Of a DNA stretch of 64,000 nt, positions 4,101 through 55,063 are shown piece after piece. Where the stretch lies: assembly GCF_023856365.1 (NCBI RefSeq), contig NC_064548.1, positions 3,943,001 through 4,007,000 on the forward strand. Direction: 5' to 3'. The position numbers and the translations under genes were made by a program. The notes below the pieces were generated by a model. It saw nothing but the letters and a program-made list of their open reading frames with translations. It searched no databases and was not told where the DNA came from. The number at the start of each line of letters is the position of its first letter. Within the stretch, counting starts at the first letter, position 1. The DNA comes from Brienomyrus brachyistius. Taxonomy: Eukaryota > Chordata > Actinopteri > Osteoglossiformes > Mormyridae.

Positions 4101-7100
4101 CCAAAAGCATGCTTCAGGAGGAGAGAGAAGAGGACGCACCCTTGCTTCACACCACTCTTGATGTCAAAGGGTTCAGACATGCTGCCCTCATGCAGGATGG
4201 TTGCCTTCATATCACCATGTTGTGTAGCCATGGGGGGCATCCGATTTTCAGAAGGATATTGAAGTGCCCATCCCCAGTAACAATGTTGAATGCTTTTATG
4301 AGGTTGATGAGGGCAATACATAGGGGTTTCTGCTGTCCTCTGCACTTCTCCTGTTAAACGTTCTGCATGACATACACACTGGGATCAGGATAGATGCACT
4401 CAACTAACTTCTGAAGGTGCACTATCATAGAGTTTGCCAAGGAGGAAGATGCTCTTAGAGTTGTTATAGGACTTGTTGTACAGAGTGACAATCTTGGTAT
4501 CTCTCATGTCTTGTGGTACAGCTCCTCTCCAGCACTGGTGAAGGATGTCATGTAGAGGCTGCAGTGTTTTTGCAGAGCTTAATCAAGTCCAACGGGATGC
4601 CATGGATGCCAGGTGGTTTGCCGCAGGCTAACCAGTCAATAGCCGTGCAGAGTTCTTCTAGTGCTGGTTTAGCATCTAGCTCCTCCATGATGAGCAGAGG
4701 TTCGATGGCATCAAGGGCTGAAGTGACAGCAATGTTCTCTCTGGTGTATAGTACTGAGTAGTGTTCTACCCATCTCTCCATATGCTTGCCTATGTCACTT
4801 ATCACTTCCCTGCTGGATGATTTGAGGGGGGCTCTGAGTTGGACCTAAAGCTTTTTCGATCCCCTTGTACATCCTTTTGATGTTTCCTGTTGCTGTTGCA
4901 GTCTGGCTGTCATGGCTGAGCTGCTGCCAGTCTTCTCACCGTCTGTACTTTACTCCTGGCAGCTCTGAGTATTTGGAGGGACTTCTCACTTAGTGAACAC
5001 GCTTCACTTCTACAGATGATGGGAGTTAACATCTTGGACTTGGCTTCAAATCAGTCACAGTTCTTGGAGGTCTTCCTCCCAAAGTTTGCAAAGGTTGTTG
5101 TTTGAATGGTCTCCCAGAGGAATCCTTGTCGCCTAATTCAACCATTGCCAACAAGGAGATCATGATAGCAAATCCTACCCCATGTTCTCTGCATTTCTCT
5201 TCCCTTGTCAGAAGAAGGCCTAGTCTTTCTCCTTGAGCATGCCTGATCCAGCTAGTGGTGTTTCTTGCAGAGCAGCTACCTGTAGTCTGTGTAGCTTTTG
5301 TTGATGATGGCTGTTTTTTTGTGTTGCTGATGGCTTGACGGTTGGTGCTCTGGGGCAAAGCTGGAGTGTCCTCTCCAGGGCACAAGCCAGGGCAGCGTAA
5401 TAAGGAGAACCAACTCTCCACACTGGAGATGGATCCAAAGGAATGGCAAATGCCGGTATGGTTTGGCACCAGCAGTGTTGCAGGAGTTGCCAGAGCATTG
5501 CTGAGACCAGCACCGGGCTGCCTGAGGGACTCCCAGCTCCAGATTATTTCTCAGCATTTACTCCCAAAGACTTTCCCATATATGGGGGTAGTCGCAAGGT
5601 AGCGGAGATGTTGATTTTCTGTCAGTTTACTCCATTAGCCTTTGTCTCTCCCAAGACGACCACGAGGCAGTGGTGCTATTTGCCCATAGTTGATTTGTGG
5701 GCATCAGGCTCCAGGGCATGTCCATACACCAGTGAGCCTGCTTGCAACATGTCTTGGGGCCAACCTTCTCCAAGTCCCTGCCAGTTTGGGCTGGAACCCC
5801 TCAATTGACATCTGTCACCGTGGGGATGCAAAGAATTGGGCTTGCTGTGTAGAGGCTATGTACTGGCAGGGAGAGACTTAGGTACTCAGCTCTCTGTTCA
5901 CGGTGCTGGAAACACCTTTGCTAGCCAGTGGTGAGGATAGAAGTGAAACACTTCACCAACGCACTAGACGCATCCCATAGTCTGTGATAGAGAATAACCT
6001 GCCCTTCACACTGATTGTGTTGAGTCGCTCACCTCTTACACAATGACTGTATCTGTCACTCACCTTTCCTACAAACTGACTGTATCAGTCACTCACCTTT
6101 CCTACAAACTGACTGTATCATCACTCACCTTTCCTACACACTGACTGTATGAGTCACTCACCTACTACACAGTAACTATGTGAGTCACTCACCTGCCATT
6201 CATACTGACCGTATCCGTTACTCACCTTCCCTATACACTAACTGTATAGATCACTCAATACTGCATAATGACTGTATCAGTCACTCACCTTTCCTACAAA
6301 CTGACTGTATCAGTCACTCACCTTTCCTACACACTGACTGTATGAGTCACTCATCTCTCTTGTACACTAACTGTATGAGTCACTCACCTACTACACACTG
6401 ACTGTATCGGCCACTCATCTACTACACACTGACTGTATCCGTCACTCACCTCTCCTACACACTGACTGCATCCGTCACTCACCTCTCCTACACACTGACT
6501 GTATCCGTCACTCACCTGCCCTACACACTGACTGCATCTGTCACTCACCTCTCCTACACACTGACTGCATCCGTCACTCACCTCTCCTACACACTGACTG
6601 CATCTGTCACTCACCTCTCCTACACACTGACTGCATCCGTCACTCACCACTCCTACACACTGACTGCATCCGTCACTCACCTGCCCTACACACTGACTGC
6701 ATCTGTCACTCACCTCTCCTACACACTGACTGCATCCGTCACTCACCTCTCCTACACACTGACTGTATCCGTCAATCACCTGCCCTACACACTGACTGCA
6801 TCTGTCACTCACCTCTCCTACACACTGACTGCATCTGTCACTCACCTCTCCTACACACTGACTGCATCCGTCACTCACCTCTCCTACACACTGACTGCAT
6901 CCATCACTCGCCTCTCCTACACACTGACTATATCCGTCACTCTCCTCTACTACACACTGGCTGCATCCATCACTCACCTCTGCTACACACTGACTATATC
7001 CGTCAATCACCTGCTCTACACACTGAATGTATGAGTCACCCCCCTACTACACAGTAAGTATGTGAGTCACTCACCTGCCCTACACACTGACTGTATCAAT

Positions 7101-10100
7101 CAATCACCACTCCTACACACTGACTGTATGAGTCACTCACCTACTACACAGTAACTATGTGAGTCACTCACCTGCCATTCATACTGACCGTATCCGTTAC
7201 TCACCTTCCCTATACACTAACTGTATAGATCACTCAACTGCTGCATAATGACTGTATCAGTCTCTCACCTGCTACACACTGACTGTATCGGTCGCTCACC
7301 TTCCCTACACACTGTCTGTATAAGTCTCTCACCTGCTACACACTGTCTGTATCAGTTCCTCACCTGCTCTACATACTGTACTGACTGTATCAGTCTCTCA
7401 CCTGCTACACACTGACTGTATCTGTCACTCACCTGCCCTACACACTGTCTCTACAGTCACTCTCCTATTACACACTGACTGTATCAGTCCCTCACCTTCT
7501 CTACACAGTCTCTACAATCACTCTCCTGTTACACATTGACTGTATCAGTCCCTACCTGCCCTACATACTTTTTGTATCAGTCCCTCACCTGCCCTACACA
7601 CTGTCTCTACAGTCATTCTCCTACTACACACTGACTGTATCAGTCACTCACCTTCCACACATTTTCTGTATCAGTTACCCATCTGCTATACACTGACTGT
7701 ATCAGTTATTCTGTGCTACATACTTACATGTGTGGTTTTAGGTTCAGGTCCCAGAGGAGGATCCCCCCAACAAACATCAACACATTGAATTAATTAAGTG
7801 TCAATTTGTCCCTATTTCTGAAAATGTCTTTGAAAAGGCATTAGATAACACACATGGTAATGCTGGCCTTCCCAAACCATTTAAAATATCATTCTGCCCA
7901 GGATTTAACAAGTACTAAGTGTTCGTACAGTCACCATGACGAATGTAACAGGTGTAGCTGTGAGCTCTCTGCAGTCTGTCTGACAGCTGAGTCCTGGTAT
8001 GAAGGAAGTCTGGGTTGGTTGGGGGGCAGCATCCTGTGCAGGGCAGAGCCAGCCTACACTGAGAAGGGAAAACATGGGGGGGGTATAAGTGACAGGAAGT
8101 ACAGATACAGAACAGGAAGAGCTTGTCGACACAAGGAGGATTATGGGAGCTGCCTTTGATAGCCTGTGCTTTTGAGTGAGACTCCAGTTTTCAATTTTTA
8201 AATGTATAAAAACAAACCATTCTGAATTTAACCCATTCCCACAATGAGCTGTGTGTGTTCTAGGGACCTCACCACTTTGTATCTTGTCTCTCTTGGTAGT
8301 ATCTATTGTTTTCTCCTGGAGACTCAGTATGCTGGATGCCTCATTAAGAGGGACTGATTGAGATCGGTGCAAGCACCTCTGCTCAGTTGCTAAAGGCACT
8401 TTAAATAGAGCTGTTGATATCTGTATGGAGGAGGGCGGCAGGGGTTTCCAAGCTGACCCACTTCCACCCCATCCAGGAGCCCAAGCCCCCCCCACAGGCA
8501 GAGACATGCTGCATCCCTAGAGCTGTTTTCTCTCTGCAGGGATTTACTTTCCTCTGTTGTTTAAGTTTCACTGAACATAATTTCTGTATCTATATCCCCA
8601 CCACCCCCCCCCCCCCCAGCGGACCCAGTGAGGCCGAACTCAGATCGCAGCATAGAGAACCTGACAGAGAGGCACGGGTACGAGGACCCATCACTCAGCT
8701 CGCCATTCATCACCTACATCAAGGCAAGTCCCCGCCCCCCGCAGCCTGTTCCATTTCTGGCCTTCCCAGCCCCCCACCTCACGGAGCGTTAGTCTGTATG
8801 CTTAAAATATGATGGAATACACCCAGGACGCTGAATTATTCATATTTTCTGGCACACCCCACTCACATGATTGGTCAGGTCCTGCCGAGGGTTCTTGGGA
8901 AGGACCAGGCGTCTCTAACGCTGCCTGTCCCTCTCACTTCCTGGCATGAGCATCTTTCATGCTGCCTGTCCCTTTTACTTCCCGGCGTAGGCGTCTCTCA
9001 CTCTGCCTGTTCCTCTCACGCTGCCTGCCCCTCTTATTCCCTAGCATGGGTGTCTCTCACGCTGCCTGTCCCTCTCACTCCCTGGCATTGGCGTCTCTCA
9101 CTCTGCCTGTCCTTCTCACTCCCTGGCATTGGCGTCTCTCACTCTGCCTGTCCCTTTCACTCCCCGGCATAGGCGTCTCTCATTCTGCCTGTCCCTTTCA
9201 CTCCCCGGCATAGGCGTCTCTCATTCTGCCTGTCCCTTTCACTCCCCGGCATAGGCGTCTCTCATTCTGCCTGTCCCTTTCACTCCCCGGCATAGGCGTC
9301 TCTCATTCTGCCTGTCCCTTTCACTCCCCGGCGTAGGCATCTCTCACGCTGCCTGTCCCTCTCACTCCCCGGCATAGGCGTCTCTCATTCTGCCTGTCCC
9401 TTTCACTCCCCGGCGTAGGCGTCTCTCACGCTGCCTGTCCCTCTCACTCCCCGGCATAGGCGTCTCTCACTCTGCCTGTCCCTTTCACTCCCCGACGTAG
9501 GCGTCTCTCACTCTGCCTGTCCCTTTCACTCCCCGGTGTAGGCGTCTCTCACTCTGCCTGTCCCTTTCACTCCCCGGCGTAGGCGTCTCTCACGCTGCCT
9601 GTCCCTCTCACTCCCTCCTGTATGCCTCTCTCACTCTGCCTGTCCCTCTCACTCCCTGCTGTAGGCATCTCTCACTTTGCCTGTCTCTCTCACTCCCTGC
9701 TGTAGGCATCTCTCACTTTCTCTGTCCCTCTCACTCCCTGCTGCAGGCATCTCTCACTTTGCCTGTCCCTCTCACTCCCTGCTGCAGGCATCTCTCACTT
9801 TGCCTGTCCCTCTCACTCCCTGCTGTAGGCATCTCTCACTTTGCCTGTCCCTCTCACTCCCTGCTGTAGGCATCTCTCACTGTGTCTATCCCACTCACTC
9901 CCTGCTGTAGGCATCTCTCACTTTGCCTGTCCCTCTCACTCCCTGCTGTAGGCATCTCTCACTTTGCCTGTCCCTCTCACTCCCTGCTGTAGTCATCTCT
10001 CACTTTGCCTGTCCCTCTCACTCCCTGCTGTAGGCATCTCTCACTCTGCCTCTCCCTCTCACTCCCTGCTGTAGGCATCTCTCACTCTGCCTCTCCCTCT

Positions 10101-13100
10101 CACTCCCTGCTGTAGGCATCTCTCACTTTGCCTGTCCCTCTCACTCCCTGCTGTAGGCATCTCTCACTCTGCCTGTCCCTCTCACTCCCTGCTGTAGGCA
10201 TATCTCACTCTGCCTGTCCCTCTCACTCCCTGCTGTTGGCATCTCTCACTCTGCCTGTCCCTCTCACTCCCTGCTGTTGGCATCTCTCACTCTGCCTGTC
10301 CCTCTCACTCCCTGCTGTAGGCATCTCTCACTTTGCCTGTCCCTCTCACTCCCCAGCGTGGACTTCTCTCACGCTGCCTGTCAGTGTCATTAAAAGTGTC
10401 ATCAAAAACAGTTTTCTTTTGCTTCAGAGATGCCCCCTCAGATTTCCCACTCCTTACTGAGTGTGGTGTACAGCTTTCCGGTTATGCGACAGTGGGGGTG
10501 AGAGCGTGTATCCCTCCCGGACTGCACAGGCATATGTATGTGACAGCCACAGGGGAAAAGGAGAGAGAGACAGAGAGAGAGTGGGAGAGAGGGCAAGACA
10601 GAGCTGTAACACCATTGTGTGGATAGATCACTGTGTCTTAGGAGGGGGAGGGGGGTTTGGATGTTAGCAGAGGGGGAGGGGTGGGTTCTCACTGGCCCTC
10701 GCTCGCTGTGGCAGGGTGGAGCGCTGAGTACCAGCCAGTCACAGGCCTCGGGTGGCGGTCAGGTGACCTGGCTGCAGCTGCAGCTCAGAGGGTGACTCTG
10801 TGCTCTCACATCAGGACCGGGCCGCAGGTTTCGACGAGCCCCTCCGGATAGAGGAAGACCCCAGCTGGGCAGCGCAGCGCATGTGGGTATACCGTCCCCA
10901 CCCCCAGCCCTGTCTGTCCAGCCCCCCTCCCTCTCTGTCTTTTTCCTATGGAATATATTGGATGTTAAACAGCTTGTAAACACAGTGTTAACATTTAAAA
11001 AATTTATGGTGATGAATTGTTAATGAATTTTACGAGGTAGCATAAAGGTGTCAATTTATTGAATTTTTTTTTGCCAGCTGCTGATTAAAAATGCACATTT
11101 TATCCCCAAATCATCCAGTTTAATTCCAGTTTGTTATGCATTGTGATAACCATTGCAGACCCCTTGGTTTTATCTCATTCCTGTTGTCATGCAGGTCGAA
11201 GGTCACAGAGGAGAGCCACTTTGGCATGATCAGTCAGCTGAGGGAGGCGGTGGAGCTGCTGCAGCACCCCAACAGGTGCAGGGCTGGGTTCAGGCACAGG
11301 AAGTGTGTCTGTCTGTCTGCCTGCCTGTAAGGTTGCATGAACATGTGCTTTCTGTCTTCGGGACTAGCAGCTACATGACACTTTATCTTATTTTGCACTT
11401 GAGTTGCACATGTGGAATCTACGGTGTATCTCATTTTATAAAGCTGCATTTGTATCTCTGTGTATATTTGTCTCACTATGCTTGTCTTTTATGTCTGGAT
11501 CTCTGTTTTTAGATTTTTTTCTCTTTATATTTTTCCTAATCTTACGGGAACATTTTAGGGTGTTAAATTCTTATAATACGCCTGGTCCCCATGTCCACAC
11601 ACAGGGTGAATATGGAGTCTGCCGAGCTCTCAGAAGTACAGCTGTACCCTGTGAAGATGGTCATGCTGGAGGAGTCATTCAAGTGAGTGTGACTTCCCAC
11701 TTCATTATGGGTAAATGACTAGCCTGCGTACAGACACCATGACTGATTTCTCATGTGGTCCTTTTTCTACAGCGGACAGGACTGTGAGAATGGACAAGTT
11801 ACACCCAAGGTACAGTACAGAGCCTCTTATGTGTGCCGCCTCTGTCTCAAACACACCCACGATACAGCTGCTGAAAACACAGTGCTTTCTAGAAATCTTC
11901 AGGGTACAGCTAGCCAAGCCTTTCCAGATCAGTCTGTGGGTCTGAGCCCTAAAATTCCAGGCTTGTTCATATCGTCTTCCAGTGCCAACTTCATATAAAT
12001 GAAGAGCACACTTTGTGTTTGAGTTAGGCTTTGTATCAGCATTGTGTTTATAGAGTGAATATGCTAGCCATGGCAATATAGAAGCATCTTTGGGTTTGTA
12101 AAAAAGTTATACACAATTTAAGGTATTATTATAGGTATGTAATGATTAGACTGGATATATATAGCATATAGTAAATTGGGTTCACAAAGAAATGGAAAAT
12201 TTCCAGAAACTTTCTATTCCATGGGAAGTCAAGCTGGGGAATTTAGGTTGGAAGTTGGAAAATTTCCATGAGAATTAACGTGAAAATTCCCTGAATTTTT
12301 GCAACTCTGGTAAATGGATGAAAATGTATCTGCTGGACAGCTATATCAGATTTAGGAATCTGGAATGTGAAGTGCACAAGATGTCATAACTTGCTATGCA
12401 GAAATGCTGAAGGGATGCTGCTTTCTAACCTACTGTTTAAGCAGTTGTATTTACTTGAAAGTTGGGGTATTCCTTAAGGTTACTATGCTCTTGTTTCTTT
12501 GCAGTAGGGCTTATAGTTGATCTGTTCAGTGAATGCTCTAATAGTTGCTTTGTTGTAGAGTGAATGCCCTGATTGTTGCTACGGTAGCATCTGCTCTGAT
12601 AGTTGTTATGTTGTAGAGTGTCTGCTCTGTTGGTTATGTTGTAGACGTCTACTGTGATGGTTACTGTTACTGACTGATAGTTAGAGTGAAGGCTTTTTTT
12701 GTGGAGATGTTATGGCTGGTATGTCCTCGAATGAAGGATCTGATGGTTGTCATATTATAGAGTGAAATTTCTGATGGAGGGCTTGAGTTCCAGAAGAAAA
12801 GAGAATTGATTCTAGAGAGGACCAGACTTGAAGCCCAACTTGCATGCCGACAGTTTGAGAGACACGTGTCTCACCAGGTAACCAGCTAACACCCCTTTAT
12901 CACACATCCTTACCATCACTGAGCTGTGTCCATCGCCCACCATGTCCTGTGCATCCAGCTGGTCATGTGATCATGACTGTATTGTCAGTATGTTCTCCCA
13001 TTGAGGCTTTCCAATGTATTAAACCCAAAGCAGACTTTGGTGCTGAACAGCTGGCTCAGAGTAGCACCTAAGTACATGATCCTATGCTCTGTGCAGTTCT

Positions 13101-16100
13101 TGCTATGGCTTTGATCCCGGAGTAGATTTGGAATAGATTTCCTGTCATAGGGGCCTGTAAACATGGTCACATGACTACCTCATTGCTAGTTTGTTACAGC
13201 AGAGTTTGTTGCACAATCTCAAGGACAGCAATATCTCCTAAATGCGAATAGTCTTGCCTGTTGCCTTCATGGTTAAGAAACAGTAGAACAGAATTGTATT
13301 TTGTGATTGATTTAGTTGAAGATTTCATCTGGGCTGCATAGAAGGTGGTGATCATCTGGTGTAGGGGATGCTTACATGTCTTGTCTCCGGAGAGCGTGTT
13401 ATGATATATTTCTGTGAACTAAACCATCTCATCTTCTCACCCCCATCCTCCTGGTCTTGTTGAAACCTACTAGTCATTCAAATAAATCATTCAGAATTCT
13501 TGATTTTATATTATGTTGCTGCCACAGTCACTTCATCGCTATTATTTTGGTTCTGCTGTCTACACTTGCTGCATTCCTTACTTGACATTGACTGATCTCA
13601 TTTTAATACACTGATGAGTGTTGTAGGATATTGTTTAACAGTCAGGACTTGTATATCAAATGTGCATGAATTACCACACAAGCAATCTGCGAAGTTTAAG
13701 TTTAAATCAAAGATGCTTTCATATTTATCTTGTTGACAAACGTGAACACAAAATGCTTACTCAAAATATTGGGACACCACAGTGTACATCCCACCAAAGA
13801 GATGTAAATGTAGCATACATACTCTCAGGGGTGTGTATGTATCATGCATGCTATCAGACAGATGTAGATGTAGCATACATACTCTCAGGGGTGTGTATGT
13901 ATCATGCATGCTATCAGACAGACGTAGATGTAGCATACATACTCTCAGGGATGTGTATGTATTATGCATGCTATCAGACAGATGTAGATGTAGCGTACAT
14001 ACTCTCAGGGGTGTGTTTGTATCATGCGTGCTATCAGGCAGATGTAAATGTAGCATACATACTCTCAGGGGTGTGTTTGTATCATGCATGCTATCAGACA
14101 GATGTAAATGTAGCATACATACTCTCAGGGGTGTGTTTGTATCATGCATGCTATCAGACAGATGTAAATGTAGCATACATACTCTCAGGGGTGTGTATGT
14201 ATTATGTATGCTATCAGACAGATGTAGATGTAGCATACATACTCTCAAGGATGTGTATTTAGCATGCATGCTATCAGACAGATGTAGATGTAGCATACAT
14301 ACTCTCAGGGATGTGTATTTAGCATGCATGCTATCAGACAGATGTGAATGGAGCATACATACTATTAGACAGTTGTGCATGAAGCATAGACATGCACAAA
14401 ACCCTCATACTCACAAATAGATCTGTAAGCCACATGTATACGATCAGGGCAGTAGTTTCATAATTATAAACTTCCCCCTACCTGTCAGTTGCAGAGTCGA
14501 TCCCTCACTTACAGTGACTCCTTTTGCCTGACCTGCTAATGTCACCTCAGCTAACTGCTGTTGGATGCTATATTAGCAGCACATCTGATTGGGGGGGGGG
14601 GAGATCCAGAATGGTCCTCATGTCCGTGTGCTCCACAGATGCACTCAGGTGACCAAAGCGAGAACCAGCAGGATCATGTGGACACGGTGAGTGCAGCCAG
14701 CCTGAGCCCCTCCAGCTCTGCACCTTTAGCACCCCCGCAGTCCTCCAGGGGGCGTGAAGCTGTCTGTGCCGTATCCCACACTCGGGGGGGAGCAGGCTCT
14801 TAACTCCCTCAATGGCATCAACTGCTTCTTTAACTAGTATCCTACCTGTGCTACTCTTGTAACCATGTTATACTTTTAATAATAAAGAAACATATAAACA
14901 TTATCCAAATACCTCAAAGGCTATATTTTTATCTAAAATGCAATATAATTATATAACAAGATTAATGAAGCCAGGGAATTGGTTTTAAATTGGTTTTGTG
15001 TTTCTGTGGCGCCCCCTAGGGGGAAGACAAAAGCTCAGCCTCTTCAACACCAGTGAACTCCCCACCCTTTGGCCTGAAGCCCAGGTCAGGTAGGTGAAGG
15101 ACAGGCCGTGCGGTGGGCTGGGCTGGGGGAGGCCTCACGTTCACTTTCCTAACCCCCACACACGGAGCCAAAACCAACCAGTCCACTTCAGAACCCCCTG
15201 ACAAAGACCCGTGACAAAGACAGTGACGATGCACTTGCGTTTCTGAGAAAACCGTCATGAGTGGCCAGACTAACACAGAATGTTCCAGTGAACCTTTGAA
15301 CAGCCGTGATTGGACGCAACATGCCGGGAGGGCGGGCTGTCCTCCTGTCCTACTTACAAACCCAACCCCCTCTTGGTACTAAAATGAAAAAAAAACACAA
15401 CTTTCCTCTTTGTCTAGAATCGCTGACCTTCACCTAATTGCCCCCAGTGTTACCCCGCCCTCCTCTGCCACCCCTTCCCCCTCAGTGCAGCAGCGGCCTC
15501 TGAGAGAAAAGTCAGGCCTGTGGCCTTACAGTGGAGAACAAAAGAGAAGCCTTTTTTGGCCATTGTGTTCAGAGCAATCTCTCTCCTCAAACAATCAATC
15601 TCTTAGTAGAGAAGACTGGAGCTTTGTTTTTGGAGCAGCTGAAAGCCCCTTTTTGTAGCTAGACCCCACCCTGCCCCCCACCTTGGTTACCTGGCTCACC
15701 TCCAACAGATAATCATCCCTTAATTTCAGAGAAAGGGCTTTGACCTTCATTACTGGCTCAGCCTATCACTGTCCACTAGCATCCTCCTGGCCACACCCCC
15801 AGTCAGGCTATTGGTTCCTCCCCCATGTCCCTTTTTACAGCCAGCTCCTCTAAGCAGCAGCAGCAGTTTGTTATCCAGCTAATATGCAATGTCCTTACAG
15901 CATAACATACAGTTTGTAGAAATATGGACTGTACCCAGGGCCTCCCTCACACAGGTACGATCCAAGCCAGCATCCCCTAAGACGTCTAGAAAAAACCGAC
16001 TGTTCTTAGGCCACCAATTACACATTTACACAGATGATTCCTCGACTGAGTGCATAGCATCTCAGCAAGTGCTGCACTTGGGCAGTGATCGGATGTGTTG

Positions 16101-38300: not shown

Positions 38301-41300
38301 GAGAAACAGCCGCAGTCCCCTATTTACAGGCTTTCACTCCTGAAACAATCTTAATTGATCAGACCACATGAGGTGTTACAAAATTCTGCATACTTTAAAG
38401 TCTGAAACTTTAATTCAAATTTATCTAATCAATCGCCACAGGCAAAAGGTCTTTAAACCGAGGTGCATTTCTACTCTTTGATCTGGCTTATCTCCGTCCC
38501 TCCAGCACAGTTTGGCATAAATTATATTAAACCGAACAATGAGTTACTTGGCTGAGGGCTGTCAGCAATAAAATAACCATTAAATATTTAACCACCTTCG
38601 AAATGACAAATCACTTTAGGATGAGACATAAAAAGTATAAGAACAGTTCAGCTGTATTCTCACTGAGTTTGAGTGTTTCAAACTTCTAACAAACACTACA
38701 TAACAAACAGTTCTGTCAAGCATCTGCCAAAACCTCAGATAAATGATTAATGAGTTCAATGGAAGCAATCGGTAAATTCGACAATGGAGATATAACTGCA
38801 AGCGTATTATAAAGCATAACAGGGTTTTAAAGTGCACCTCAGTCAATTTCTGAATGTCATCACGGCCAATACATAGAATGCAAAGCAGGTGCCAATTAAA
38901 ATGTGCTTCCTTAATTAAGGTTTCCACTTCCGCTTCTGATCCTGTGGAGCCCTTTGTCTGCTGGTTGAATCGACAGGATGATTTCATTCCTATTAAACGG
39001 GCCGTTGGTTACAGACACCCTATAATCTCCCGATAATCCCTGCTTAGTGGGACTAGGGATCCCACGTGCTTCTGGCCCTGGAAGAAACATCTGAAGCATA
39101 ACAAACTGTGGGGGGTCCTTTCCCAGCCACAAAGAGCCACTGCAGGTCCAGGACGGCAGGCAGGGTGCTGACACACGCCCCCCCCACCCTGGCGGTCACA
39201 AGGCCTACCTCCCATTTCGACTTGTCGGGGCCCAGGTAGCCGGTGAAGGCTTTCTGTCCCCAGGCACACTGCATGGGGTTACAGATGGGGGCGAAAGCGG
39301 ACACAGCCTAGGCAGGGAGGCAGGACAATGCGAGTAAGAGCAGCCAGCCCCCAATGGCGAGGGCGGCGAATCAGCAAATTACACCATTCACAGCAGCACA
39401 GGGCCACTCATTACCACTGAAGACATATATGTTATGCTCATTTATAGATGTAAGCAGTGACATGCAGAAAACCTGCCTTGTACTTCCCTGGGTTGTTCAA
39501 GGCGCATATGAGGGCACCGTGGCCGCCCATAGAGTGACCCGAGATGGACATTTTCTCGGGGTCAGCCGGGAAATGGGCGCTGATTAGGCGGGGCAGCTGA
39601 GGGGTGGAGAGAGAGAGATAACAGGATGGCGGGATGCACACCCAACAGATAACCTTTTAATATAGTTTATGCGAGGGATAAAACACGACAAGGTGTGCCG
39701 TTATACAGACATAAGCAACAACAGCTTGGCATAATATGTTTAACAAAAACATTGAAACGCATTAATACAGGACCGTCATTAGGCTGCCAGAACTACCTGT
39801 GCAGTTACACGAAAATACTCAACACCCATGTGTCATCAATGGACCAATACTGTGATAGTATTTATCAAAGTTGGGGTATAAATATAGTTAGAGCCGACTT
39901 CTATAAATCACTTTGCGATAAAAGTGTACTTTACGAACGCCATTCGTGCCATTCTTCCACACTATCTCCCCCTGCAGGGGATTAAGCACAGCTGCATTTA
40001 GAGGCCTGTGTCACTGATCACAGCGTGTTTATCAGCAAGGTGACAAGTCTTCACTTCAGCTGGAACACTTCAGCTCGCCTGCCTGCTGAGTGGCTCGACT
40101 CCCAGTCAGTCACCCGCAGATCATTAACCGTAACCTCAGCAGGTTCAAAGAAAAACAGCTCACTCTTCACTCATAACACAACCCAGGACGACTCCAGACC
40201 TAGTTACATACAACACTGATAGAGTTTTCCAACTATTACGCTGAGTGAGAACAGAACTGAACCAGGCTGGGTTTGTTTTTTCCATTATAATCAGGAAGGT
40301 GACTCAGGCCTGTGGGGTGGAGAGGTAGCCGGCTAGGCCACTGTAATGGCCAGATAAAAGTAGGTATGACTCTACCAGAATAGAGAAAATAATGTATATT
40401 TTTGTTTTTTATTTACTAAAAATCTTGCCTTGGAGAATGCCCTGAAAATGTTCTTCTGTTAGACTCTTGTTGTCTGTAAGACAATGGAGTGTTTAACCCA
40501 TCTGAGAATGTACTGTCAAAACAGACGGCCAAAGGAGGACTCTGGCCTTGATGACAGAAGCCACACCTGGAATGCACCATGGCCAAAATCTTCTTTCTTT
40601 GTCATCATTTATCATTCAAAAGGACAGTAAGGGAAACACAAGCTTAGAGGCTCATCCTGATAATCTGAAAATGGAAGCACACCATAACAGCGGCCTGAGG
40701 CTTCACCCAAACATTGAGACGGTGGTATCGGGGCTTAACGACAGGCCACCGAGACAGACAGTCGGCCTCAGGGAACAAGAGCTACAGGAAGGGCCTCCAA
40801 AGCTGCCTGTCGCCCCAAGGCCTGTCATACTGCGACTGGCGGGAGCTCCAGACGAACCGCTCCTGCACAGACAGATGATAAATTCTAGAAAGTTCTCCCC
40901 GAGGAAAGACAAATTACCCCTATTTTCCTCCAAATCTGATACTATCAAAGTAACAATCCAACAGGCTGACATGCTTTTAATGGTCTAGATACAAGGGGAT
41001 AGTGGGGGCGGGGCCACGGGCTAGACCGGGGAATGGCTGGGGGCGGGGCCACGGGCTAGACCGGGGAATGGCTGGGGGCGGGGCCACGGGCTAGACCGGG
41101 GAATGGCTGGGGGCGGGGCCACGGGCTAGACCGGGGAATGGCTGGGGGCGGGGCTTGTACCTCCTCCGTGACATAGGAGTACATGCGGTAGTTCTGCTTC
41201 CAGGGCTCCTCTGTGGCATTGACATAGAAACCCGCACCAGTCCCAAAGTCCCAGCTCTCCTCCTCCCCCTCGATGTTACAACCACCTGGGAAGCCAAGAG

Positions 41301-50060: not shown

Positions 50061-50872
50061 TTACACACAGCTGACCTTCTCCTCACCAGCGCACATCCCC
50101 CCGAGCTCAGACAAGCCAAGTTTGTCCTCCCTCGAGGCCACGGGGGCGTAACTATGACGACCAGCCCCACAGTTCCCGTTCCTCAGAGGGGCGATGTCGC
50201 CCAGAGGCAGCTGGCTGTGGCTGAAGGCAACTGGTGGGATGGTGTTGACCAGGATGAGCTGCAGTGGCTTCCTCTCCTCTCGGTATCGGCAGCGGGCGTA
50301 GCGCCAGAAGGCAGAGCGGTACGTCTTGTTGAACAGTGTGTAGACGAGCGGGTTGACGGCTGAAGAAAGGTAGCCCACCCACACGAAGACGTTGAGGAGG
50401 CCGTCCATGATGCTGGCGCTGCAGGCCCCGCCGCATACCACCGCCAGCACGTTAGTGATGAAAAACGGGCACCACATGAACACAAAGAGAAAGAAGACGA
50501 TACCCAGAACTTTAGAGGCCTTCTGCTCATTGCTGATCGACTGCATGGTCCGTCTCCCAGCCTGAGGCCCCGCCTCTCGGCTTAGCGACCGCCGGAAGAA
50601 GAGCTTCTCTGAGGACAGGGAGCCCTGTGGCAGGAAGTTGAGGGGAATGGCCCACTTGGGTTTGGGTACCAGCTGGTCCAAGCAGAGGGTGGCCTCGTTC
50701 TGCAGGGCACCGATGGTCAGGAAGTAGGTGACCACCATGATAATCAGGGGGACGAAAAAGGCCACGAAGGAGCCCACCAGAACAAAGTTGTTGTCCGTGA
50801 GCTGGCAGGTGCGGTTCTTGAAAACTTTCGAGTGATCTCGGAGGCCCAGGACAGGGATGGGCATGGAGATCC
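50061..50872 (-). CDS. HTR2A: HTR2A last exon: TM5-TM7 and C-tail
   Basis: After acceptor ATATCCGCAG it reads [22 protein letters not shown]5 ([17 protein letters not shown]), and intracellular loop 3 with [20 protein letters not shown]6 with [10 protein letters not shown] and TM7 with NPLVYTLF follow. The C-tail ends EEKVSCV and stop at 50061-50063. There is no frameshift. Confidence 0.97.
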
Positions 50873-51748
50873 CTGCGGATATGAAGATGGGGGTATCATG
50901 TTATTAATGTAAGGAGAGATCGCAAGTAGCTACATCTGTGTGTATCTAAGTGCATATCAAAAACTGATACAATCGGTTTATATACACTCACACAACCCTT
51001 AATTATATCATGTATAAAATATGAAACCCAGTTTATTCAATGAGCAAAGACATTTCCACAAACATTGTGCTAAACAAAATGCGTTTTTATACTAAATATT
51101 TTTCCTGCATGGAGATGATTCAGACTAAATCCCTTGTGCACGGAAACAGCATTAACCAGAGCCAACATTCAATTCCAAATACATTTTCCAGTAATAGCAG
51201 CCTTCACAGTGCAGATTCTTCTGCCTGTTCTAGTTATCTAGACCCAAGAATCTTTCAGCAAATCTAAAACCGAATGATGAAGTTATCAAGGCAGACCATA
51301 GTCTGGCCATTGGGAAATCCAAACTGATCGCAAGTCAAACATGGCACCAGGCAGGCGAAGCCAGAAGCCTAAAATATACCTGTGTGACTGACAGGAAAGT
51401 GTGTGCAAACATAAGCGGCGCGGACCAGAAACTGTAGACATAAGTGGTTAAAAAGTAAAACACAGCCCTGAGTGACAAGTGATGGCAGATGAGTAAACTT
51501 ACTTGATGGCAAACCTTGAACCATTTGTAAATGTTGCCATTGGAGGATGTAAGGCTGTATATATGAGAATTTCCTGTATGCAGGAATATGCCCTCTTCTG
51601 ACTACGTACCCTCTGTGGTCAAAAAGACTCAGAACCTTCTTCCTTAAATATTCAAAAACTGCCCTTTTACCCATAATCAGAGCCCCCTAGCTGCTCAAAT
51701 AGGTTTACTCATAATTATCTGTACTGTATATTCTCATTGTCATGTATA

Positions 51749-51833
<85 letters not shown>

Positions 51834-54800
51834 TGTGTGTGTGTGTTGCCCTTACATGGTAAACTGCTGTGAGTAAAATGAATGTGAAATGAATAAACAT
51901 GCACCTAAAAAGAATGCATGAAGCGTGTACTGACTAAATGAAACTGAACCACTTTTGCTTGATACTTATTTCTGTTGGTTCAGGCTGCAGTCACGGACAG
52001 CAATCACAATCATGACTGTGAAATAAAACCGTCCACATTTCACCATCCAATTACGACTTTGTTATTTTAAATGATGACACCGTTGTGCACAGGGGCAGCT
52101 ATCTGGCCCACTGTTTTTACAACGAATTGTCAAGCTCATAGAAAACAATGGTGTCGCTGTCATTACTGCTTTTTCATTGAGTGACATAAATATTTTAGAA
52201 CTGGCTTTATTGTTGAAGGATGAGCTTAAGTGCTGTTTGAACTTCAGGGGTGGACGATTGCATGCAGGCCAATTTGTGTGATGCCCATTAACTGTATTCA
52301 CATCCCAGTTACAAGTGAACACATTATTGTGGAGTCACTTGGTTACCCTCTGATAAATGAGCATCTCAGTCAATTTGCACAGTGTGCATATGCAAAAAGA
52401 ATTAAATAAAACTGTTCCTTACATAAGAAAAATAGCAAGATACATGGGTAGGGTTATTTAACTTCAGAGGTCATGCTAATTACAATGTTTCCAACTCTCA
52501 CGGATCTGGCGTGACAGTCACACTTTCAAACTCTCACGCTCATGCAAAAAGTCCTACGAAATCTATATTATTCCGATATAAACTTACAATCAGCTACATC
52601 AAAGGCATTGGGGTAGTTTGAAACCCTACAGACTATTTACAATGTAATAAAACTGTTACATATGTGAGTGTAGACTTATCTCGAATTGAAAATCTCACTT
52701 CAGCCAGCCGACCAAAGTTGGCAAGCCTATAATTAGCTTTGACGAAGCATTAAACTGTACTAGAGTAGCGAGCCAGTCCTTCTGCCAAGCAGCATAGCAA
52801 TTTCAAACACAGACTATTTAACCAGTCAACCTCCTCACAGGAAACACCAGAGGGAGCTTTAAAAAGCCCTCATATGTCCAGCGCCACAATTATAGCAGCA
52901 CAAAAGTAGGCTGTAGTGGCTCTCCCCAGGACAACAGTTATCAACAACTCTGCCCATAAACAGCGGCTGTCTGTGGGCACACATTAAGAGGGCACTTTCA
53001 AGCACCCATCACCCGACCTCCATTGGCTGCTCTCTAGCCAGTCTGCACACACAGAGGGCCTCTGATTGAGAAGGTTCAGTCTGGCAGCAAGCTGAGTTTG
53101 ACACTAAGACCCCTAATGAGGGAGCTGCTGAGAACTACCAATAGTTTTCCTGCATGTAGGTGTTCTTCCACATGCATTTTCGTTACTCTTATCTGTGCCC
53201 TGCCGACAGATTTCATGTGAGGTTTCATAATACCCAGACCCAGTCGGCCTGTAGCTGGACATGCTGTACATGGTAGATCCCTAGTAAATCAGTTGCTTTT
53301 TCAGAAAATCAATGTGGACAATATCTACTCTAACTGATTTGGCTAACGTTATTTTAGCCATATTTTCAGTCACCTTTTTCTCAATACCTGATCTAAATAA
53401 AGAGAACCAACCAATGCCTGTCATGCTCCAGAAGCCATCGGCATAAGTTAATATGTAAAACCAAGTGGACTAAGTACATCCAGGACCTGGCTTGGAGATT
53501 TTTAATTGAAGACTTGTCATATGAATACATGAACACTCTTTTTGAAAGCAGGGGTCTTCATTTCCATCTGGGAAATTAAGTATGTTTACAAGTGTTTGAG
53601 ATATTTTAACATCCTTAGGTCCATTTCAGACCAATGTTTCTGTTCCACAGTGTTTCCACAATTACAATATTAGAGCTGGTAACTGACTCACAACAGCAAC
53701 AACCGCAGCACAAAGAGCTCATGTGCTGCTGAAACCATGTGGCAAGGAACACCAATAGAGATGGTCCAGACCGCCATGTTAGCACATACCAATAGGGCTG
53801 GTCCAGACCGCAATATTAGCACATACCAATAGAGATGGTCCAGACCGCCACATTAGCACATACCAATAGAGATAGTCCAGACCGCCATATTAGCACATAC
53901 CAATAGAGATGGCCCAGACCACCATATTAACAAATACCAATAGAGATGGTCTAGACCTCCATATTAGCACATACCAACAGAGATGGCCCAGACTGCCATA
54001 TTAACATATACCAATAGAGATGGCCCAGACCACCATATTAGCACATACCAATAGAGATGGTCCTGACCGCCATATTAGCACATACCAACAGAGATGGTCC
54101 AGACCGCCATGTTAGCACATACCAATAGAGATGGCCCAGACCACCATATTAGCACATACCAATAGAGATGGCCCAGACCACCATATTAGCACATACCAAT
54201 AGAGATAGTCCAGACCGCCATATTAACATATACCAATAGAGATGGCCCAGACCACCATATTAACAAATACCAATAGAGATGGTCCAGACCTCCATATTAG
54301 CACATACCAACAGAGATGACCCAGACTGCCATATTAGCACATACCAATAGAGATGGCCCAGACCACCATATTAGCACATACCAATAGAGATGGTCCTGAC
54401 CGCCATATTAGCACATACCAACAGAGATGGTCCAGACTTCCATATTAGCATATACCAATAGAGATGGCCCAGACCACCATATTAGCACATACCAATAGAG
54501 ATGGCCCAGACCACCATATTAGCACATACCAATAGAGATGGCCCAGGCCACCATATTAGCACATACCAATAGAGATGGTCCAGACCACCATATTAGCACA
54601 TACCAATAGAGATGGTCCAGACCACTAAATTAGCACATACCAATAGAGATGGCCCAGACCGCCATATTAGCACATACCAATAGAGATGGTGCAGACCACC
54701 ATATTAGCACATACCAATAGAGATGACCCAGACCTCCATATTAGCACATACCAACAGAGATAGTCCAGACCACTAAATTAGCACATACCAATAGAGATGG

Positions 54801-55063
54801 TCCAGACTACCATATTAGCACATACCAATAGAGATGGTCCAGACCACTAAATTAGCACATACCAACAGAGATGGTCCAGACTGCCATGATCTTCATGAAG
54901 GCCTTCGTCCGGGAGTTAAAGCGGCTGTGCTGGATGGGATTGCGTATGGCGATGTAGCGATCCAGGGAAATGGCACACAGGTGCATGATGGACGCTGTGG
55001 AGAAGAGGACGTCCAGGTAGATCCAGATTGGGCACAGGGTTGGAGGCAGCGGCCAGCTGTATC
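50061..55063 (-). CDS. HTR2A: HTR2A, serotonin 2A receptor (3' part, last two coding exons)
   Basis: A class A GPCR that couples to Gq and phospholipase C in the plasma membrane. Exon 55063-54863 covers TM3 to TM4. It carries the amine-binding aspartate in [10 protein letters not shown], the DRY motif in LDRYIAI, and AVWTISV of TM4. Exon 50872-50061 covers extracellular loop 2 to the C-terminus, with WCPFF in TM6 and [12 protein letters not shown] (NPxxY) in TM7. It ends VSCV, the PDZ ligand typical of 5-HT2A. The junction restores GTT G/GG ATC (V-G-I). The exon with the N-terminus, TM1 and TM2 is not found up to 64000, so the gene is partial here. The order next to ESD and LRCH1 matches human. 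Confidence 0.96.
50873..53742. other. HTR2A intron, unique part
   Basis: No gene seen. It includes a long TA repeat and, near 52480-52740, sequence with CTCTCACGGATCTGGCGTGAC that resembles a dispersed fish repeat. Confidence 0.5.
51750..51826. repeat. (TA)n microsatellite
   Basis: About 36 TA dinucleotides, then CA and TG repeats to about 51846. Confidence 0.97.
53749..54862 (-). repeat. 37-bp minisatellite made of HTR2A exon end plus 5' splice site
   Basis: About 30 tandem copies. On the minus strand each unit is ATGGCGGTCTGGACCATCTC then TATTGGTATGTGCTAAT. The first 25 bases equal the last 25 bases of the HTR2A exon (coding MAVWTISV) and the last 12 equal the start of its intron (GTATGTGCTAAT). 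The array begins at the real donor and extends 1.1 kb into the intron. Confidence 0.97.
54863..55063 (-). CDS. HTR2A: HTR2A exon: TM3-TM4
   Basis: Acceptor GTCCCTCTTCAG, reading [20 protein letters not shown], then [20 protein letters not shown], then [20 protein letters not shown] and VWTISV. Donor TGTTG/GTATGT, phase 1. Its last 25 bases form the first unit of the adjacent 37-bp array. Confidence 0.97.

Follow-up and report, generated by a model that had tools for sequence, protein, structure and literature searches.

HTR2A Gene Context and Exon Borders

The window analyzed here, a whole stretch of 64,000 nucleotides (nt) from the mormyrid fish Brienomyrus brachyistius, holds two coding exons of the serotonin receptor gene HTR2A on its minus strand, and the intron between them begins with a long tandem array built from the edge of the preceding exon. 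A first-pass annotation of the sequence had named HTR2A as the host gene, and in sequence searches both exons indeed match human 5-HT2A best, with best Protein Data Bank (PDB) scores of 484.8 bits for 2A vs. 362 for 2C and 284.8 for 2B. Exon 1 is located not in the window but in stretch L009, and the joined HTR2A protein is intact at 465 amino acids (aa). The closest database protein, from Paramormyrops kingsleyae, is 98% identical across the 337 aa searched and reads through the canonical exon junction.

The exon encoding transmembrane segments 3 to 4 (TM3-TM4) occupies 55063-54863 on the minus strand, with TTCAG before it and the donor TTG/GTATGT after it, so that the exon end and intron start read ...ATGGCAGTCTGGACCATCTCTGTTG/GTATGTGCTAAT. 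Its size of 201 nt is conserved with human, where the counterpart exon is given as likewise 201 nt (PMC4702415). The intron that follows (50873..54862, minus strand) is 3990 bp long by subtraction of the exon borders and carries the array at its 5′ end, and the last coding exon (50061..50872, minus strand) begins after CCGCAG and is open through to the stop codon.

A Minisatellite Straddling the Exon-Intron Boundary

Tandem Repeats Finder (TRF) reported the array at 53751-54881 with a period of 37, 30.6 copies, 90% match, and 0% indels. The unit consists of the last 25 bases of the exon and the first 12 bases of the intron, and the repeat thus straddles the exon-intron boundary, with the real edge of the exon serving as copy number one. 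When the minus strand is cut in 37-base steps from 54887, this source copy (unit 0, 54851..54887) contains the true 5′ splice site, with its GT at 54862-54861, and 30 further units keep the same register, with no indel, as far as about 53751. Units 1-30 (53751..54850, minus strand) form the intronic minisatellite, the last of them without its intron half. The 37-bp exon/intron unit and the start of the array at the junction, both proposed previously, are therefore borne out by TRF and by unit cutting. Units 1-29 each differ from unit 0 at 1 to 6 places (mean identity 90%), while the intronic units differ mutually at 3.7 places on average and comprise 23 distinct types among 30.

The array has undergone concerted turnover, as seen in variants common to units and in a nine-unit block that is present twice (units 10-18 and 19-27; 53852..54517, minus strand) with 0-2 differences per unit pair. 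In the lag test that identified this block, the mean difference at a lag of nine units was 2.5, vs. 3.67 in shuffles, none of 5000 of which reached the observed value (p = 0.001 for the minimum over lags 1-15). At the near edge, unit 1 is identical to unit 7. Toward the far edge, the exon half of unit 29 carries three private changes, and that of every other unit at most one. At the far edge itself (53753-53741), the exon half of unit 30 is followed by GTGTTCCTTGCC, unlike GTATGTGCTAAT, giving totals of 31 exon halves and 30 spacers, and GTATGTGCTAAT was not found again elsewhere in the array-bearing intron.

Uniqueness of the Array and Direction of Copying

In the genome searches, the array was seen only at HTR2A. 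A two-unit query of the genome gave 14 matches, all inside the array, and a 22-base pattern allowed up to two mismatches gave 31 matches in 985 Mb, namely the true site and units 1-29 plus a single match on sequence C10 with two mismatches; the repeat counts from these genome searches are lower bounds. A reversed-pattern control for the 22-base search had zero matches in 985 Mb. The first-pass annotation had pointed to a copy of the array away from HTR2A as the observation that would contradict an origin from the exon, and no second array was found in the 985 Mb searched. The nearest related exons lie on C10 (87% identical), C15 (76%), and C21 (71%), the C10 gene being probably a duplicate of HTR2A and the other two HTR2-like. 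The intron occurs at the same codon position in the C10 and C15 genes, the C21 border being unsettled, and no copies of the exon end were present beside the three exons in 561-base stretches that include about 350 intron bases each. An 18-bp, 3-copy repeat (L034:131-188) does occur beside the HTR2-like exon of C21, away from the junction.

The exon keeps the peptide AVWTISVG, which was exact in 79 of 120 relatives (the best 120 of 1348), with the VWTIS core in 107 of the 120 and the other 13 unmatched by the search expression. By contrast, MAVWTISV is encoded in only one of the 30 array units (unit 21), the commonest array peptide is MVVWAISI (8/30), and one unit contains a stop. The distinct array changes, read in the exon frame, comprise 15 nonsynonymous and 2 synonymous changes vs. 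55:17 possible, i.e., no coding constraint. Because the protein sequence found across relatives is preserved in the exon, whereas the array drifts without coding constraint, the sequences support the exon as source and the array as product, which is the direction that had been suggested from the sequence at the outset.

The same earlier suggestion allowed for gene conversion of the array back into the exon. This part is not supported, as the replacements most frequent in the array (A to V, T to A, and V to I) are all absent from the exon, which has GCA, ACC, and GTT at the places where GTG, GCC, and ATT stand in the commonest unit. We also considered an HTR2C-like paralogue, which MVVWAISI resembles, as the source of the array peptides; this is not supported by the three nearest exons in the genome, which read AVWTISVG (C10, by eye), VVWLISIG (C15), and TVWLISG (C21, border unsettled).

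Donor Sites Along the Array

The 9-mer of the true donor, TTGGTATGT, is exact in 24 of the 30 intronic copies, or 25 of 31 including the true site. In five intronic copies the G at +5 is altered, to A in three (GTATAT) and to T in two (GTATTT), and the donor position of the last copy reads TTGGTGTTC (GTGTTC). Across the window, all 25 minus-strand copies of TTGGTATGT fall in the array, and there are none on the plus strand. The first-pass annotation envisaged about 30 equal decoys after the true donor; the decoys are present, but 24 rather than about 30 of them are exact. The 9-mer is only a moderate donor, as 4.3% of the 7507 other GTs in the window score equally high under a weight matrix of human frequencies.

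The copies also differ just before the donor, with GTTG in 5 of 30 (units 3, 12, 15, 21, and 24) and ATTG in the remaining 25. Because three of the five GTTG copies also keep the exon's A at −20, vs. 1 of the 25 ATTG copies (Fisher p = 0.009, nominal since units share descent), the five are best read as retained ancestral states.

Predicted Consequences of Decoy Use

Every decoy extension that was translated (8 of 30, retaining 1, 2, 3, 5, 10, 20, 29, or 30 units) reads ...TISVGMC and then a stop, with a predicted product of 198 aa. Decoy use would therefore truncate the receptor in TM4 just past the junction, as had been anticipated. If one unit is retained, 26 nt separate the stop from the last junction downstream of it, and if two or more are retained, the distance is at least 63 nt. 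Nonsense-mediated decay (NMD) typically requires a stop more than 50-55 nt before the last junction. Given this rule and these distances, only single-unit retention should escape NMD.

No protein ending in VGMC was found among 119 database proteins scanned for truncated isoforms, of which only those with VW.IS.G (at least 48) could show one. Three entries (P0151, P0153, and P0158) have M after VW.IS.G but are otherwise different in sequence. The corresponding human intron is described as containing a 118-bp alternative exon, credited there to a paper with a title on a truncated 5-HT2A variant (PMC4702415).

Another potential product of the array concerns acceptors. In units 1, 3, and 7, which start at 54850, 54776, and 54628, respectively (minus strand), TTTAG stands ahead of an in-frame exon half of 21 nt, by eye without a pyrimidine tract. 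The true donor is 90 nt away from the TTTAG of unit 3 and 238 nt away from that of unit 7, but only 16 nt from that of unit 1, too close for an intron. As possible raw acceptors, those of units 3 and 7 might, on a bold and improbable reading, enable a 7-codon micro-exon in TM4 to arise from the array.

Relation to Known Exon-Edge Minisatellites

Although the array was initially presented as new, exon-edge repeats have already been described in lancelets and in human genes, and the HTR2A array is a further, unusually regular case of these minisatellites, to which it adds a fish example. Our literature search, limited to open-licence papers and to the terms used, listed no title on an array of this kind in HTR2A. 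Tandem copying of a gene segment also underlies a study of intron gain by tandem genomic duplication (PMC4974935). Splice signals reportedly form part of that idea. The HTR2A copies differ in sitting in an existing intron, where no new intron is seen.

The closest likeness is with the “mirage” minisatellites of amphioxus, described in Adh3 and in the globin genes BflGb6 and BflGb9, in which the unit similarly spans an exon-intron boundary, carries splice signals, and evolves in concert inside the cluster (PMC3087553). That account also describes edge copies that escape homogenisation, a pattern visible at the far edge of the HTR2A array but not at its near edge, and length instability between haplotypes. 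The two differ in that HTR2A, the gene of a vertebrate receptor, repeats a 37-bp unit 30 times, whereas the amphioxus units are 150-160 bp in three or six copies (BflGb6), 157 bp (BflGb9), and 10-72 bp (Adh3). They also differ in that splicing was examined in amphioxus, where its regular course reportedly seemed unharmed by the mirages (PMC3087553), while the HTR2A array is described from genome sequence.

In human ABCA7, the variable number tandem repeat (VNTR) of intron 18, with 23.7 copies in the reference, is likewise flush with the exon and includes its donor, and retention of one unit leads to a frameshift and a premature stop (PMC5954066); a premature stop is also predicted for HTR2A. 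One-unit retention is reported there as seen and unaffected by VNTR size, exon 19 skipping being affected. The ABCA7 unit is 25 bp with the donor GT as its first two bases, whereas 25 of the 37 bases in HTR2A are coding exon, and length polymorphism and splicing were measured in ABCA7, while HTR2A is represented by one assembly (PMC5954066). The human IFI6 (6-16) minisatellite also offers multiple splice donors, and two downstream units are used, giving three mRNA species (PMC4526556, citing Turri et al. 1995); the IFI6 forms encode isoforms, whereas the HTR2A decoys that were translated give a stop. We did not use MIR137 as a precedent, as the available text assigns its donors to exon 3, with no statement that they are within the VNTR (PMC6692358).

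Proposed Origin and Splicing Outcome

We consider the array to be a mirage-type minisatellite in which mainly the true donor is used, with minor leakage to decoys, and we put the probability of this account at roughly 75%. We infer that a tandem duplication first copied a 37-bp segment over the 3′ edge of the exon (25 exon and 12 intron bases) and that slippage or unequal exchange, including at least one duplication of a nine-unit block, then amplified it into the adjacent intron. The exon copy would have been held by purifying selection as the intron copies drifted. Most likely, the spliceosome mainly picks the first, true donor, as this one is transcribed before the others and takes part in the definition of the exon along with the upstream acceptor. 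If one or two near decoys are occasionally used, this would yield RNAs with a stop right after the junction, mostly removed by NMD if two or more units are retained, and encoding a 198-aa receptor truncated in TM4 if only one is. Minor leakage with mainly first-donor use is what the ABCA7, amphioxus, and IFI6 precedents lead us to expect, and the array is probably largely tolerated by splicing.

Several observations weigh against this account. The ending of the array on an exon half is not predicted by plain head-to-tail duplication of a 25+12 unit without later change at the edge; either the original intron start was lost there, or the 12-bp spacer was never the original intron start. Among units 1-29, variation is scarcer in the donor columns than in the others (1/9 vs. 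16/28 columns vary, Fisher p = 0.023), a weak hint against pure drift and toward some possible reason for retaining the donors. The true donor is also not favored by its predicted local RNA openness, where it ranks 25th and 24th of 31 at two window sizes, and on this prediction we rejected RNA structure rendering it more open. Furthermore, 5′ splice sites are activated by SRSF1 if intron-proximal and by hnRNP A1 if intron-distal (PMC5585400), so that high SRSF1 could tip the choice toward decoys that lie closer to the acceptor.

The identical 9-mer in most intronic copies, the stop and NMD geometry of the decoy extensions, and the lower variability of the donor columns would also suit a rheostat in which decoys are used often, the amount of full-length receptor depends on copy number via NMD, and truncated receptor is made, and the 118-bp alternative exon of the corresponding human intron could be taken in the same sense (PMC4702415). 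However, unit retention in ABCA7 is reported as independent of VNTR size (PMC5954066), the amphioxus mirages left regular splicing apparently undisturbed (PMC3087553), and the protein scan, with its 48 or more informative sequences, returned no VGMC ending; we regard such regulation as unlikely. Its extension to the biology of weakly electric fish, in which one-unit retention would give the 198-aa receptor, longer retention less mRNA, and allele length would set serotonin sensitivity, is more doubtful still. It is also conceivable, by way of U1 telescripting, that the decoys are helpful, with the 25 clustered U1-binding sites recruiting the U1 small nuclear ribonucleoprotein (snRNP) and aiding exon definition or suppressing premature intronic polyadenylation. 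Intact donors clustered in a 3990-bp intron are in keeping with this, but the moderate strength of the 9-mer, as scored with the human matrix, and a predicted openness of the array donor sites below background are not, and we think it very improbable.

Two further explanations are an assembly artefact and a pre-existing satellite. One mirage array appears aberrantly assembled in a genome draft (PMC3087553), and the copy number of the HTR2A array could still be wrong, but an artefact is hard to reconcile with the 23 distinct unit types, the exact register, the lack of any N in the window, and the position within a 29-Mb contig, and there is only a slim chance that the array is one. A pre-existing satellite might have been inserted at, or have overwritten, the exon end, and the region is rich in minisatellites, which make up 7.7% of the window vs. 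2.6% in 20 10-kb stretches placed by hand on C1-C20 (6 of the 20 with one), about a threefold excess. This scenario is already contradicted by the genome searches, which found no second array, and by the exon protein sequence, which is that common to relatives, and it can be practically dismissed.

The locus provides one transcript with 25 donors that share nine bases and a similar local context and differ mainly in position. It is thus a natural test of how the spliceosome selects one of many equal 5′ splice sites, and also of a potential of such arrays to tune a receptor gene.

Other Minisatellites in and Near the Window

Minisatellites elsewhere in the window lie at 6003-7706, 8912-10382, 13800-14388, and 41003-41154, with units of 33, 41, 60/31, and 35 bp, respectively; the share of about 7.7% of the window counts these together with the HTR2A array. 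In three neighboring 10-kb stretches, minisatellites account for 9.3-9.6% of two, and one (L010) has none. Outside the window, intron 1 of HTR2A contains a further minisatellite with about 35 copies of a GC-rich 19-bp unit (L009:5451-6212, minus strand). By eye it is not exon-derived; it starts about 60 bp past the exon 1 donor and contains many GGGTGA motifs.
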